64,000 bases of DNA, taken from assembly GCA_026414745.1 (NCBI GenBank), contig JAOAIK010000040.1, positions 62,001 to 126,000 on the forward strand. Reading direction: 5' to 3'. The notes under the pieces were generated by a model. The model was not told the DNA's origin, did not search any database, and worked only from the letters and a program-made list of their open reading frames with translations. The translations under genes were made by a program, and so were the position numbers. This DNA is from Roseococcus sp. (GTDB taxonomy: Bacteria > Pseudomonadota > Alphaproteobacteria > Acetobacterales > Acetobacteraceae). Shown here piece after piece: positions 17,471 through 24,113 of this stretch (its first letter is position 1; each line of letters starts with the position of its first letter).

Positions 17471-18303
17471 GCCCCCGGGCGGGGCAGCTCCGCGCCGATC
17501 TGCCGGGCGGCCCCGTGCTGCTGCGCTGGACGGAATGGGGGCCGCCCGAGGGCGCGCCGGTGCTCTGCGTGCATGGTCTGACCCGCAACGGGCGCGACTT
17601 CGACGCGCTGGCCATGGAACTCGCCCGGCGCGGCCGGCGCGTGCTCTGCCCGGACATGCCGGGCCGCGGCCATTCCTCCTGGCTGGCCGATGGCGCGCTC
17701 TACGCCGTGCCGAGCTACCTCGCCGTGCTCGCGCCGCTGCTGGAGGCGCTGGGCGAGCATGACTGGGTGGGCACCTCCATGGGCGGGCTCATCGGCATGG
17801 GGCTCTGCGCCACGCCGGGCGCGCGCATGCGCCGCCTCGTGCTGAACGACATCGGCCCCTTCGTGCCGGTGGCGGCGCTGGAACGCATCCGCGACTACCT
17901 CAGCGTCCCGCAGCGCTTCGCCAGCCTCGACGCCCTCGAGGCCTATCTGCGCCGGGTGCACGCGCCCTTCGGCCCGCTCTCGGACGCCGAGTGGCGGCAT
18001 CTGGCCGTCCATTCCGCCCGCGCCACCGCGGCCGGCGAGCTCGCCCTGCACTACGACCCGGCGATCGTGCAGCCCATGCTCGCCCCGCTCGCCGATCTCG
18101 ACCTCTGGGCGCTCTGGCCCGCCGTGACCCAGCGCCCCGTGCTGGTGCTGCGCGGCGAAAGCTCCGACCTGCTGCTGCCCGAGACGGCGGCGCGCATGGC
18201 CGAAAGCCCCGCGGTGCGGCTGGCCACCATCCCGGGCTGCGGCCATGCCCCGGCGCTGATGGAGCCCGCGCAGATCGCGCTGGTGGCGGATTTCCTCTCC
18301 TGA
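17467..18303 (+). CDS. Alpha/beta hydrolase
   Basis: A 278-residue alpha/beta-fold hydrolase. The nucleophile elbow is GTSMGG with S104; D234 and H260 (in GCGHAPAL) complete the likely triad. LCVHGLTRNGRDF near the start is the oxyanion-hole region. I use the GTG at 17467, which overlaps the CoA-transferase stop by four bases and is the first plausible start after it. Coupling to the CoA-transferase suggests esterase or enol-lactonase-like work on the same pathway. Confidence 0.85.
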   Translation: MSPRAGQLRADLPGGPVLLRWTEWGPPEGAPVLCVHGLTRNGRDFDALAMELARRGRRVLCPDMPGRGHSSWLADGALYAVPSYLAVLAPLLEALGEHDWVGTSMGGLIGMGLCATPGARMRRLVLNDIGPFVPVAALERIRDYLSVPQRFASLDALEAYLRRVHAPFGPLSDAEWRHLAVHSARATAAGELALHYDPAIVQPMLAPLADLDLWALWPAVTQRPVLVLRGESSDLLLPETAARMAESPAVRLATIPGCGHAPALMEPAQIALVADFLS

Positions 18304-18357
18304 CGGGTCTGGTTTGATCCCGAGCAGTTGCGCGGCCGCCGCGCCCGTATTAAACGC

Positions 18358-18403
18358 CTCGCTTATCTAAGGCAGCGAGCATATATCTCTCGCGCAACGA
18401 GAG
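18358..18403. promoter_or_regulatory. Operator-like inverted repeats upstream of sqr
   Basis: The 128-base gap before sqr is unusually AT-rich. It contains CTCGCT (18358-18363) and AGCGAG (18374-18379) around a 10-base centre, and directly after it CTCTCG (18387-18392) and CGAGAG (18398-18403) around CGCAA, with CATATATC between. Two adjacent dyads here fit a repressor-controlled promoter, such as a sulfide or persulfide sensor, but no regulator gene is nearby. Confidence 0.35.
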
Positions 18404-18431
18404 GCTGTGCTCCAGGCGAGGAGACGAGGCG

Positions 18432-19742
18432 GTGCAGCAGGCATGGGCGGCGCTCGGGCGGCGCGGGGTTCTGGCCGGGGCGGGGGCCCTGGCCGTGATG
18501 GGGACGGGCGGCGCGCCGCGCGCCGCGGTGCGCACCCGGGCGAAGATCCTCATCATCGGCGCCGGCGCGGCAGGGCTGGCTGCCGCCAACCGCCTCGTCC
18601 AGCGGCTGGAGGGGGCGGAGATCACGCTGCTCGACAAGCGGCGCGAGCATCTCTACCAGCCCGGCTTCACGCTGGTGGCCGCGGGCATCAGGCCGCGCGA
18701 CTATGTGCTCTCCACGACGCGCGAGTATCTCTCCTCCGGCCTCACCCTCATCGAGGAGGCGGCGGCCGAGATCGACCCTGTCGCCAAGACCGTCACCACC
18801 GATGCGGGGCGGCGGCTCTCCTATGATTTCCTGATCGTCGCCCCGGGCCTCGAGCTGCACTACGAGGGGATCGAGGGCATGGATGTGGCGCGCATCGGCC
18901 AGAACGGCCTGGGCAGCATCTATGCCGGCCCCGCCCAGGCCGAGGCCACCTGGCGCGCCATGTCGCAGTTCGCCGACCGCGGTGGCATCGGCGTCTTCCA
19001 CCGCGCGGGCACCGAGATGAAATGCGCCGGCGCGCCGCTGAAATACTGCTTCCTGACGGAGGATGCGCTCGCGCGCCGCGGCAACCGCTCGCGCGCCGAG
19101 CTCATCTACCACGCGCACAACCGCGTGCTCTTCTCCGTGCCCATCGTCGCCGAGAAGGTGAGGATGCTCTACCAGGAGCGCGGCATCCAGGTGAAGCACG
19201 AGCATGTGCTGACGCGGATCGACCTCGACCGGCGCATCGCCACCTTCCGCACGCCCCAGGGCGAGCGCGAGCAGCCCTACGACTTCATCAACGTGGTGCC
19301 GCCCATGCGCGCGCCCGCGGTGGTGCGGAACTCGCCGCTCGCCTGGCGCAGCGGCCCCTGGCGGGCCGAGGGCTGGGCGGAGGTGGACCGCGCGACCCTG
19401 CGCCACGTGGTCTTCCCCGAGGTGTTCTGCGTCGGCGACATCGCGGGCGTCCCCAAGGGCAAGACGGCGGCCAGCGTGAAGTGGCAGGTGCCGGTGGCGG
19501 TGGATCACCTGGTCGCCGCCATCGAGGGCCGAAACAGCGCCGAGCGCTACGAGGGCTACACCTCCTGCCCGCTCATCACGCGCGTGGGGCGGGCCCTGCT
19601 GGTGGAGTTCGACTACCAGGACAATCTCGTGCCCTCCTTCCCCGGGCTCATCGCGCCGCTGGAGGAGCTCTGGATCACCTGGATGATGAAGGTGGTGGGC
19701 CTGAAGCCGACCTACCTCGCCATGCTGCGCGGCCGCGCCTGA
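18432..19742 (+). CDS. sqr: Sulfide:quinone oxidoreductase, type II (SQOR-like)
   Basis: Membrane-associated flavoprotein that oxidises sulfide and passes electrons to quinone. The 436-residue protein binds FAD through GAGAAG (43-48). Cysteines in MKCAGAPLK (C198) and YTSCPL (C379) match Cys201 and Cys379 of human SQOR, which hold the persulfide; the third cysteine of type I enzymes is absent (Tyr in SIYAG). This places it in the two-cysteine type II group, which needs a sulfur acceptor such as glutathione or sulfite. The C-terminus (TWMMKVVGLKPTYLAML) fits membrane contact. The N-terminus GRRGVLAGAGALAVMG is Tat-signal-like, which is unusual. GTG start with GAGGAG upstream. Confidence 0.9.
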   Translation: MQQAWAALGRRGVLAGAGALAVMGTGGAPRAAVRTRAKILIIGAGAAGLAAANRLVQRLEGAEITLLDKRREHLYQPGFTLVAAGIRPRDYVLSTTREYLSSGLTLIEEAAAEIDPVAKTVTTDAGRRLSYDFLIVAPGLELHYEGIEGMDVARIGQNGLGSIYAGPAQAEATWRAMSQFADRGGIGVFHRAGTEMKCAGAPLKYCFLTEDALARRGNRSRAELIYHAHNRVLFSVPIVAEKVRMLYQERGIQVKHEHVLTRIDLDRRIATFRTPQGEREQPYDFINVVPPMRAPAVVRNSPLAWRSGPWRAEGWAEVDRATLRHVVFPEVFCVGDIAGVPKGKTAASVKWQVPVAVDHLVAAIEGRNSAERYEGYTSCPLITRVGRALLVEFDYQDNLVPSFPGLIAPLEELWITWMMKVVGLKPTYLAMLRGRA

Positions 19743-19757
19743 GAAGGGGAACAGGCC

Positions 19758-20147
19758 ATGAAGGAACTCGACATCGCCACTCTCCTCGCCGTCTTCCAGG
19801 AGATGCTGGGCTGGACGCTGTGGCCGCTCGTGGCGCTCTCCGCCGCGGCCACAGTCGCCTTCCTCTTCGTGCTCTGGCGCGACCGCGGGGTGGTGGCGCG
19901 CCGCCTCGTCTGGGCCGAGGCCATCGGCCTCGCCGGCGGCATGGCGGCGGTGCTGGTCATGCAGGCGGTGACGCATTCGCGCTTCGCCGATCTCGGCGGG
20001 CCGGTCGATTGGCTGCTGGTGGTGGGCATCTTCGCCGCGGGGCTGATCGGCAGCGCGGTGGGCGCCTATGCGCTGCTCGGGCTGCTGGCGGGCGCGCCGC
20101 AGCGGCAGGCGGAGGCGGGCGCGCGCGCCCGGGCGGTGCGGGCATGA
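19758..20147 (+). CDS. Small membrane protein, possibly DUF5368
   Basis: A 129-residue protein with three predicted membrane helices (about 18-41, 48-70, 82-108) and a basic, Ala-rich C-terminal tail. It resembles DUF5368 proteins, which I recall beside sqr genes, but I cannot verify this. It follows sqr by 15 bases with an AGAAGGGGA ribosome-binding region and overlaps the next gene by ATGA. Its place suggests a membrane partner of SQR or a carrier of the sulfur product. No catalytic motif is visible. Confidence 0.65.
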   Translation: MKELDIATLLAVFQEMLGWTLWPLVALSAAATVAFLFVLWRDRGVVARRLVWAEAIGLAGGMAAVLVMQAVTHSRFADLGGPVDWLLVVGIFAAGLIGSAVGAYALLGLLAGAPQRQAEAGARARAVRA

Positions 20148-20578
20148 GCGCGCGGCGTCTCGCGGCGCTGGCGCTGGCGCTGGCGCTCTCCCTTCCCGGC
20201 ATGGCGCGGGCCGAGGCCCCGCCGCGGGTGCTCGCCCTCGTCACCTCCTCCGATCCGCAGGTGCAGGGCATGGCCTTCGTGCTGCTCAACCAGATGCGCC
20301 AGCAGGGCGTGACGGTGGAGGTGATGCTCTGCGGCGCCGCGGGCGATCTGGCGCGGCGCGAGCCGCCCGAGGCCGCGCCGCTGCGGCCGCTCGACGCCAC
20401 CCCGGCGCAGATGTTCCGCACCCTCGTGCAGGCCGGCGTGCGGGCCGAGGTCTGCGCCCTCTACCTGCCCAATGCGGGGCTGGGGCCGGAGGCGCTGATC
20501 GAGGGGGTGCGCCCCGCCGCCCCGCCCGAGATGGCCCGGCGCATGCTGGCGGCCGCCACGCGGGTGCTGCCCTTCTGA
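20144..20578 (+). CDS. Periplasmic DsrE-like sulfur protein
   Basis: A 144-residue DsrE/DsrF-like protein with a signal peptide (1-24, ending MARAEA). The DsrE pattern is visible: LVTSSDPQVQGMAFVLLNQM, VEVMLCGAAGDLA with C63, EVCALYLPN with C104, and a C-terminal helix. DsrE-family proteins carry sulfane sulfur on cysteine; a secreted form next to SQR could accept or relay persulfide outside the cytoplasm. It is translationally coupled to the upstream membrane protein. Whether C63 or C104 carries sulfur is inference. Confidence 0.75.
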   Translation: MSARRLAALALALALSLPGMARAEAPPRVLALVTSSDPQVQGMAFVLLNQMRQQGVTVEVMLCGAAGDLARREPPEAAPLRPLDATPAQMFRTLVQAGVRAEVCALYLPNAGLGPEALIEGVRPAAPPEMARRMLAAATRVLPF

Positions 20579-20580
20579 CC

Positions 20581-21003
20581 ATGCACCTCGTCTGCCCCCG
20601 GTGCGACGCGGTGAACCGGGTGCCCGAGGCGCGGCTCGGCGAGGGGCCGCGCTGCGGCGCCTGCCGCCAGCCGCTCTTCGACGCCAGGCCGGTGGCGCTG
20701 GACGCCGCGCGCTTCCGCCATCACGTCGCGAAGAACGAGATCCCGGTGCTGGTGGATTTCTGGGCCTCCTGGTGCGGGCCCTGCCGCGCCATGGCGCCGC
20801 AGTTCGAGGCGGCGGCGGCGATGCTGGAGCCGCGCATGCGGCTGGCCAAGCTCTCCACCGAGGAGGCGCCGGAGATCGCGGCGGAACTCGGCGTCACCGG
20901 CATTCCGCTGCTCATCCTGTTCAAGGGCGGGCGCGAGGTCGCGCGGCAGGCGGGTGCGATGCCGGCGCGCCAGATCGCCGCCTGGGCCCAGGCCCATCTG
21001 TGA
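20581..21003 (+). CDS. trxC: Thioredoxin 2 (TrxC)
   Basis: A 140-residue thioredoxin with the N-terminal zinc motif CPRC (C5, C8) and CGAC (C25, C28), and active site WCGPC at 64-68 (C65, C68). The conserved cis-Pro lies in VTGIPLLILF. No signal peptide, so cytoplasmic. It starts two bases after the DsrE-like gene. In an SQR operon it may reduce persulfides or disulfides produced during sulfide oxidation; in other bacteria TrxC serves oxidative-stress repair. Confidence 0.92.
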   Translation: MHLVCPRCDAVNRVPEARLGEGPRCGACRQPLFDARPVALDAARFRHHVAKNEIPVLVDFWASWCGPCRAMAPQFEAAAAMLEPRMRLAKLSTEEAPEIAAELGVTGIPLLILFKGGREVARQAGAMPARQIAAWAQAHL

Positions 21004-21033
21004 CAACCCCCCTTCCCGTCAGGAGGTGACCGC

Positions 21034-21804
21034 ATGACCCCCCGCCGCGCCCTGCTCGCCCTGCCGCTGCTCGCCCTGCCCGCCACGCTGCGGGCCCAGG
21101 GCGCCGGGATCCGTTGCTTCGGGCCGGGCGGCCCCGCCCCGGCGATGAACGCCGCCGCCACCGCCTTCCGCGCCGCGACGGGCGTCGCGGTGGAGATCGT
21201 CGCCGGCCCGACGCCGAGCTGGGCCGAGCGCGTGCCGGGCGAGGCCGACCTCCTCTTCTCCGGCGCCGAATACATGATGGACGAGTTCGTGGCGCGCTGG
21301 CGCGAGGCGGTGGAGCCCGCCACCCGCCGCACCCTCTTCCTGCGGCCCTCCGTGCTGCTCGTCCGCAAGGGCAACCCGCGCGGCATCACCGGGCTGCGCG
21401 ACCTGCTCTCCCGCCCGCCCGCGGAGGCGCGCATCCTCGCCACCGGCGGGGCAGGGCAGATGGCGCTGTGGGAGGACGTGGCCGGCCGCACCGGCGACAT
21501 CGCGCTGGTGCGCGCGATGCGCGAGCGCATCGTCATGATCGCCCCCAACACCGGCACGGCGCAGCGCGAGTGGCGCGAGAAGCCCGAGGCCTACGACGTC
21601 TGGCTCGTCTGGAACCACTGGCAGATCGCCGCCCCCGAGCACGCGGACATCGTCGAGATCGAGGAGCCCTTCCGCATCTGGCGCGCCGCGGGCTCGGTGC
21701 TGACGCGGCGGGGCGCGGCGCGCGAGGAGGTGCGGCGCTTCGACGCCTTCCTGGCGGGGCCCGAGGGCGCCGCCGCCTTCCGCCGCTTCGGCTGGCAGGG
21801 CTGA
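21034..21804 (+). CDS. AcfC-like periplasmic substrate-binding protein
   Basis: A 256-residue secreted binding protein (signal about 1-22, ending TLRAQG) of the ModA-like/AcfC group. CFGPGGPAPAMNAAATAFR at the start of the mature part, VEIVAGPTPSWAE, ADLLFSGAEYMMDEF and PNTGTAQREWREKPEAY are family-like. AcfC relatives bind small anions, possibly sulfate or organosulfur compounds, but the ligand is unproven. A strong AGGAGGTG site lies at 21021-21028. It is 30 bases behind trxC, so it probably belongs to the sqr operon. No permease gene accompanies it. Confidence 0.72.
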   Translation: MTPRRALLALPLLALPATLRAQGAGIRCFGPGGPAPAMNAAATAFRAATGVAVEIVAGPTPSWAERVPGEADLLFSGAEYMMDEFVARWREAVEPATRRTLFLRPSVLLVRKGNPRGITGLRDLLSRPPAEARILATGGAGQMALWEDVAGRTGDIALVRAMRERIVMIAPNTGTAQREWREKPEAYDVWLVWNHWQIAAPEHADIVEIEEPFRIWRAAGSVLTRRGAAREEVRRFDAFLAGPEGAAAFRRFGWQG

Positions 21805-21820
21805 AGGGCGCGGCGCGGCC

Positions 21821-24113
<2,293 letters not shown>

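Follow-up and report, generated by a model that had tools for sequence, protein, structure and literature searches.

The window analyzed here, a 64,000-nucleotide stretch of a Roseococcus sp. assembly (GCA_026414745.1, contig JAOAIK010000040.1, positions 62,001 to 126,000 of the forward strand), carries five plus-strand genes encoding a type II sulfide:quinone oxidoreductase (SQR), a three-helix membrane protein, an exported DsrE-like protein, a TrxC-type thioredoxin, and an AcfC-like binding protein. A first-pass annotation of this DNA had treated the five genes as one sulfide oxidation system. Across genomes, the conserved unit is two genes, encoding the SQR and the DUF5368 membrane protein, and not five; DsrE, TrxC, and AcfC are accessory, optional local extras. 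The SQR carries a predicted twin-arginine translocation (Tat) signal, and we consider it likely that the two-gene core forms an outward-facing sulfide oxidase on the inner membrane, in which the SQR is held by DUF5368. The SQR, DsrE, TrxC, and AcfC families were already known; what appears to be new is a clade of Tat-exported type II SQRs with DUF5368 as partner. Neither a Tat-exported SQR with DUF5368 nor the term "DUF5368" was found in a literature search, which misses most subscription papers.

Conservation of the SQR-DUF5368 pair

The membrane protein, which the first-pass annotation had described by its three helices, scored 129.2 bits against DUF5368 (PF17336; cut-off, 25). Its gene directly follows that of the SQR in every one of the 78 distinct loci flanked by 3 kb or more on each side. 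Named genomes were also scanned with an SQR alignment, which yielded at least 596 stretches, 555 of them encoding a relative (double matches per gene are possible); among the 80 best-scoring loci, which were kept, DUF5368 was directly downstream of the SQR on the same strand in 79. DUF5368 was likewise present, always on the same strand, in 108/109 distinct core sequences, a set that includes three truncated re-fetches of places already counted (L004, L170, and L172). In Paracoccus denitrificans PD1222, the only labels given to the pair are "FAD/NAD(P)-binding oxidoreductase" for the SQR (PDEN_RS23370) and "DUF5368 domain-containing protein" for its neighbor (PDEN_RS23375).

The association was also found when DUF5368 was the starting point. 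In the class sample, DUF5368 exceeded the cut-off in 13 of 385 genomes and lay directly beside an SQR of this kind in all 13, and in the phylum sample it was present in 9 of 398 genomes, each time beside a Tat-SQR (the two samples overlap, with G000 and G311 in both). Matches below the cut-off, in G131 and at a second place in G311, had no SQR alongside. None of the 16 classic type II SQRs in the class sample had DUF5368 within 1.5-kb flanks. Clustering of the neighboring genes of 92 loci by a crude open reading frame method revealed, among the matches listed, no third gene near all loci. Assembly of the gene cluster by chance is excluded, because G010, a sister genome, has the same five-gene order and some 100 loci have the SQR-DUF5368 pair.

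Enzyme type, export, and membrane partner

The best relative of the SQR in the PDB is the mitochondrial SQOR (217 bits), and the next kind is the flavoprotein of flavocytochrome c sulfide dehydrogenase (FCSD; 68 bits), with FCSD and other SQR kinds scoring no higher than 68 bits. The protein has cysteines at positions 198, 206, 333, and 379. C198 and C379, which the first-pass annotation had numbered exactly, align with the SQOR cysteines that we take to be the catalytic ones. As both are common to the Tat-SQR clade (group A) and the classic type II enzymes (group B), type II chemistry is expected for the window SQR on the basis of sequence, in line with the initial assignment. A type III selenoprotein SQR model from NCBIfam scored 202.7, below its cut-off of 525.

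The window SQR shares with SQOR and bacterial type II SQRs, which are often fused to rhodanese, the flavin adenine dinucleotide (FAD) fold and the cysteine pair in KCAGAP and TSCPL contexts. It differs in carrying a Tat signal, in lacking a rhodanese domain, in residues specific to its group (W305 and W351 among them), and in having a DUF5368 gene next door. The C terminus differs as well: exactly two residues follow an MLRG-type motif in 104/106 proteins of the Tat-SQR clade (the exceptions are L055, with MIQG and also two residues, and L125, which runs on), whereas all 18 classic SQRs extend 11 to 38 residues past this position. The first part of the C-terminal membrane-anchoring segment is kept in the Tat-SQR clade, while the last part, found in 18/18 group B proteins, is absent. 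In a quick tree, all 18 classic SQRs fell to the same side of a branch (97). The tree is compatible with group A having arisen once, but the group A split needs two changes, and row L044 adjoins group B.

The Tat-like N terminus noticed in the first-pass annotation proved to be a feature of the whole clade. The arginine pair is invariant in 14/14 aligned Tat-SQR proteins, and 112 of 114 SQR rows (re-fetches included) show the twin-arginine motif, the other two rows beginning mid-gene at contig starts. A TatC gene is present in the same genome. Judged by its sequence, the SQR is a Tat substrate; this and all other signal peptides were assigned by eye.

Tat export is typical of FCSD flavoproteins, whose partner is a cytochrome c, and the exported flavoprotein could in principle be an FCSD-type enzyme using cytochrome instead of quinone. 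The genome does encode a separate FCSD-type protein (L018, 8008-9300), in which the FCSD_central and FCSD-flav_bind domains are present, and, upstream, a gene that is cytochrome-like by look. However, neither domain was detected in the window SQR at an E value of 0.01, its score to SQOR exceeds that to FCSD as given above, and the SQR-DUF5368 unit has no cytochrome c gene. Like SoxF/FccB, the window SQR would be an exported flavoprotein for sulfide, but the two differ in their domains and in their partner, DUF5368 rather than cytochrome c, and we regard an FCSD-type enzyme as very improbable.

The structure model of DUF5368 is confident (predicted local distance difference test [pLDDT], 91.7) and comprises helices at residues 6-42, 47-72, and 82-110 plus a C-terminal helix. 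Among 98 sequences, the N terminus was net negative in 97, loop 1 net positive in 98, loop 2 net negative in 98, and the C terminus net positive in 90, which by the positive-inside rule predicts an N-out/C-in topology. Residue conservation, counted after four truncated copies had been dropped, was highest for G18 and D84 (98 sequences each) and E15 (97), followed by G81 (94) and by W22, S74, and P82 (91 each). Given the charge pattern, the most conserved residues would lie at or near the periplasmic side, and the SQR-DUF5368 unit is therefore probably outward-facing.

DsrE, TrxC, and AcfC beside the pair

The identities that the first-pass annotation had given to the remaining three proteins held up. 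The signal-bearing DsrE-like protein, with its two cysteines, scored 24.0 bits against PF02635, just above the cut-off of 22.7, and its model (pLDDT, 91.4) matched YchN, DsrE, and TusD with Z scores of 13.3 to 15.4 (next rows, below 6). It shares with DsrE/DsrF, TusD, and YchN the predicted fold and a cysteine following its third long strand but has a signal peptide, a second invariant cysteine (C63), and a single gene instead of a DsrEFH set, only one DsrE-family protein being present among the seven proteins tested. TrxC exceeded the cut-offs of both NF008229 (128.2; cut-off, 125) and the zinc ribbon family PF21352 (44.4; cut-off, 27.1); as it has no signal peptide, the protein itself does not belong to the periplasmic machinery. 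The AcfC-like protein scored 119.8 bits against SBP_bac_11 (cut-off, 25), and its best solved relatives are PEB3 (E value, 3.5e-36) and AcfC (5.1e-35). It is a near whole-length relative of Vibrio AcfC and Campylobacter PEB3, but its gene adjoins sulfide genes, and its binding role is putative. AcfC has been proposed as a periplasmic sulfate-binding protein (PMC5976639).

A five-gene system was not supported. Of the 21 genomes of the genus, 20 were compared (G018, 57% complete, was left out), and five had a Tat-SQR (G000, G003, G004, G010, and G011). One sister genome, G010, repeats the order of all five genes, whereas G003, G004, and G011 keep the CaiB-hydrolase-SQR-DUF5368-HemB-MetZ order without DsrE, TrxC, and AcfC. 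Exported DsrE was found in the vicinity of the SQR in 6 of the 78 full loci (the window, L011, L034, L111, L115, and L119), compared with 4 for a TrxC-like protein and 2 for AcfC. Co-occurrence of the five genes thus held for SQR and DUF5368 but not for the other three, which were mostly absent, and exported DsrE as a constant partner of the SQR was rejected.

These distributions bear on the secreted DsrE relay that had been proposed from the window alone. In a dedicated five-gene relay, the membrane protein would convey sulfane sulfur from the SQR to exported DsrE, and TrxC and AcfC would be essential. The identical gene order in the window and G010, the invariance of C63 and C104 in 15/15 exported DsrE proteins, and the alignment, albeit weak (E value, 0.04), of C104 with the YchN cysteine are consistent with such a relay. 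However, SQR-DUF5368 occurs without DsrE in 72/78 full loci, the DsrE-TrxC-AcfC tail is missing from the locus in three of the five Tat-SQR genomes of the genus, DsrE occurs without a Tat-SQR in G006 and G086, and AcfC is beside DsrE only in the genus members G000, G010, G003, and G006. A relay in which all five genes are needed is therefore unlikely. What stands of the proposal is that the exported protein is of the DsrE kind and goes with genomes encoding a type II SQR; an SQR-to-DsrE relay is possible but not the rule. The type II assignment of the SQR, its Tat signal, and the place of the membrane protein in the system gained firmer support from the comparisons than a single sequence can give.

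In a class sample of 289 genomes, exported DsrE was found in 9. A type II SQR of any kind was present in 6 of these 9, compared with 40/289 overall (Fisher p = 3e-4, ignoring kinship; two of the six genomes are of one genus). In contrast, only 2 of 14 Tat-SQR genomes had exported DsrE (p = 0.065, kinship likewise ignored), and in G006 and Paracoccus sediminicola it accompanies a non-Tat SQR. Exported DsrE thus appears to belong to sulfide/thiol biology and not to the Tat-SQR in particular.

Alternatively, two modules could share a transcript at this locus, a Tat-SQR/DUF5368 oxidase and a DsrE-TrxC-AcfC module for sulfide or thiol stress, which elsewhere would ride with bd-type (CydAB) oxidase, peroxiredoxin, and Rrf2/ArsR genes. 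In G003, G006, and G242, DsrE has bd oxidase genes as neighbors, an assignment confirmed by Pfam; in G003 and G006 it is adjacent to AcfC behind these genes, without TrxC. On named plasmids, annotated cydAB genes adjoin exported DsrE in Paracoccus sediminicola and in Roseicitreum antarcticum, and a rhodanese gene does so in Skermanella; in Salinivibrio, it has no named sulfur genes nearby. Exported DsrE is also near cydX in P. pantotrophus, and peroxiredoxins are found near DsrE. The enrichment of type II SQRs of any kind in exported-DsrE genomes speaks against a separate module, as does the 4-base overlap of the DsrE and DUF5368 genes, which suggests coupled expression. We give the two-module arrangement somewhat less than an even chance; it agrees with the core proposed here and differs only on DsrE.

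Proposed sulfur route and layout of the locus

In the outward-facing oxidase that we favor, the type II SQR would fold with FAD in the cytoplasm, be exported by Tat, and sit on the periplasmic face of the inner membrane. DUF5368, whose most conserved residues (E15, G18, W22, G81, P82, and D84) are predicted on the periplasmic side, would hold it there and may both dock the SQR and admit quinone. Sulfide would then be oxidized outside the cytoplasm, with electrons entering the quinone pool, and sulfane sulfur on C198/C379 would be taken up by sulfide or sulfite as a small acceptor; certain lineages would use an exported carrier protein instead, for which exported DsrE is the candidate here. The DsrE cysteines could be reset by TrxC, possibly with a CcdA/DsbD-type protein as intermediary, and an oxyanion product is a conceivable ligand of the AcfC-like protein.

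Besides the scarcity of exported DsrE at these loci and in Tat-SQR genomes, several points weigh against this reading. Export of the SQR and the topology of DUF5368 are predictions. A fold search with the DUF5368 model against the PDB gave no match at an E value of 0.001 (best, 1.3; a new fold is not implied), and its docking and quinone roles are therefore what we infer. Because genes adjacent to DUF5368 were used to build the SQR profile (A3), the first samples are not independent of DUF5368; the SQR-based searches, namely, the named-genome scan and the class sample of 289 genomes, are the only independent ones. In 3 of the 14 Tat-SQR genomes (G194, G218, and G295), DUF5368 was missed by the Pfam model, and the partner matched only a custom profile (E value, ~1e-13). 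At L125, the SQR has no MLRG end and no stop before the contig end, and no DUF5368 was seen; as the title gives a contig coverage of 1.2, this may be an assembly error, or else a true exception. Finally, SoxY was not enriched in Tat-SQR genomes (4/14 compared with 73/289; p = 0.76), and SoxYZ as a general acceptor of the exported SQR was rejected on these counts. The most cautious view overall is therefore that the sulfur goes to a small-molecule acceptor and that exported carriers are optional and local.

A more far-reaching version, which we hold only tentatively and think rather more likely to be wrong, combines an obligate two-subunit, outward-facing SQR-DUF5368 enzyme, in which DUF5368 would stand in for the anchoring or quinone-entry function of the missing C-terminal segment, with a handover of sulfur that differs by lineage among interchangeable exported carriers. 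These would be DsrE here and the exported rhodanese upstream in relatives of Azonexus/Dechloromonas, where it directly precedes the SQR in L091, L097, L101, L106, L107, and the shorter locus L116. L115 has a further exported rhodanese candidate not recognized by Pfam. Placement of rhodanese was taken from a rescan; the 78-locus count had mixed in the rhodanese domain of a dioxygenase-like protein (L113 and L115) and an unchecked match in L125. If this version is true, the system would be a periplasmic counterpart of the cytoplasmic SQR-rhodanese-dioxygenase pathway.

Other sulfur genes were found in the same genome and near the SQR of relatives. Contig C48 carries a sox-type cluster with SoxY, a SoxA-type cytochrome, a DsbD/CcdA-type membrane protein, an FCSD-type flavoprotein, a SoxC-like molybdoprotein, and another exported DsrE-family protein, with an arginine pair in its N terminus and one cysteine (L018, 11325-11804). 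A DsrE family gene inside the sox clusters of two Sulfitobacter species is mentioned in PMC11034169. Contig C55 encodes a persulfide-dioxygenase-like metallo-beta-lactamase (MBL) protein 56% identical to the one in G006, which lies in what appears to be a compact sulfide island (L013, 2104-10636) with a rhodanese-like/SQR fusion, regulators, cytochrome bd oxidase, exported DsrE, and AcfC. Neighbors in some relatives include persulfide-dioxygenase-like MBL proteins, ArsR regulators, exported rhodanese, OsmC, and SLAC1 proteins. The SLAC1 family includes sulfite exporters; a SLAC1-type anion channel protein follows DUF5368 in L111 (by Pfam) and in L114 and L119 (by clustering); the same observation covers L182, 7630-8598. 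In L111 and L119, exported DsrE comes after it. On a Cereibacter sphaeroides plasmid (L190, 4374-7575), an SQR-like gene with a small "hypothetical" gene in the place of DUF5368 directly follows Calvin-cycle genes, including those of RubisCO, which suggests sulfide as an electron donor for CO2 fixation.

The features of the locus are listed in Table 1. The genes are as tightly packed as first described, with spacings of 15, -4, 2, and 30 bases in order. The start initially placed at 18358 is too early, as the frame contains no ATG, GTG, or TTG before 18432, where the GTG start is preceded by a Shine-Dalgarno-like AGGAG (18419-18423). Upstream, on the same strand, are genes for a CoA-transferase and an alpha/beta hydrolase; downstream, facing the five genes, are those for a HemB-type dehydratase and a pyridoxal phosphate enzyme of Cys/Met metabolism (metZ-like by look). 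A TTGATC-N2-GATCAA palindrome, which we presume to be FNR-like, is intact upstream of the SQR in G003, G004, and G011 (loci L184, L185, and L186) and degenerate in the window and G010, which hints at altered low-oxygen control in the lineage of the window. No sigma-70-type promoter was matched in 18250-21900, and Rfam and tRNA scans of the window returned nothing. Two terminator-like matches (0.6 expected), one inside the SQR gene and one inside the DUF5368 gene, were taken as chance. A positional-GC gene caller served as a guide only; in a test on the window it missed DsrE and TrxC and once called an antisense frame.

Table 1. Features of the SQR-DUF5368 locus (positions in the window)
Feature	Position	Strand	Remarks
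Degenerate remnant of FNR-like box	18314..18327	+	Upstream of SQR; from comparison of upstream sequences
SQR, type II sulfide:quinone oxidoreductase	18432..19742	+	436 aa; GTG start; catalytic-type cysteines C198, C379
Twin-arginine signal peptide of SQR	18432..18527	+	Predicted; ~residues 1-32, RR at 10-11
DUF5368 membrane protein	19758..20147	+	Three long helices; predicted N-out/C-in; proposed SQR partner
Exported DsrE-fold protein	20144..20578	+	Invariant C63 and C104; accessory; 4-base overlap with DUF5368 gene
TrxC-type thioredoxin	20581..21003	+	N-terminal zinc ribbon and WCGPC, no signal peptide; accessory; 2-base gap
AcfC/PEB3-like periplasmic solute-binding protein	21034..21804	+	Accessory, putative; 30-base gap

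The side of the membrane on which SQR works is disputed in places. In PMC13047784, the failure to find a signal peptide led to the SQR of cable bacteria being moved to the cytoplasmic side. In the present case, a large and mostly proteobacterial SQR clade has a conserved export signal and a conserved membrane partner. The pairing also offers a testable function for the Pfam family DUF5368, which is available for study in Paracoccus denitrificans PD1222.

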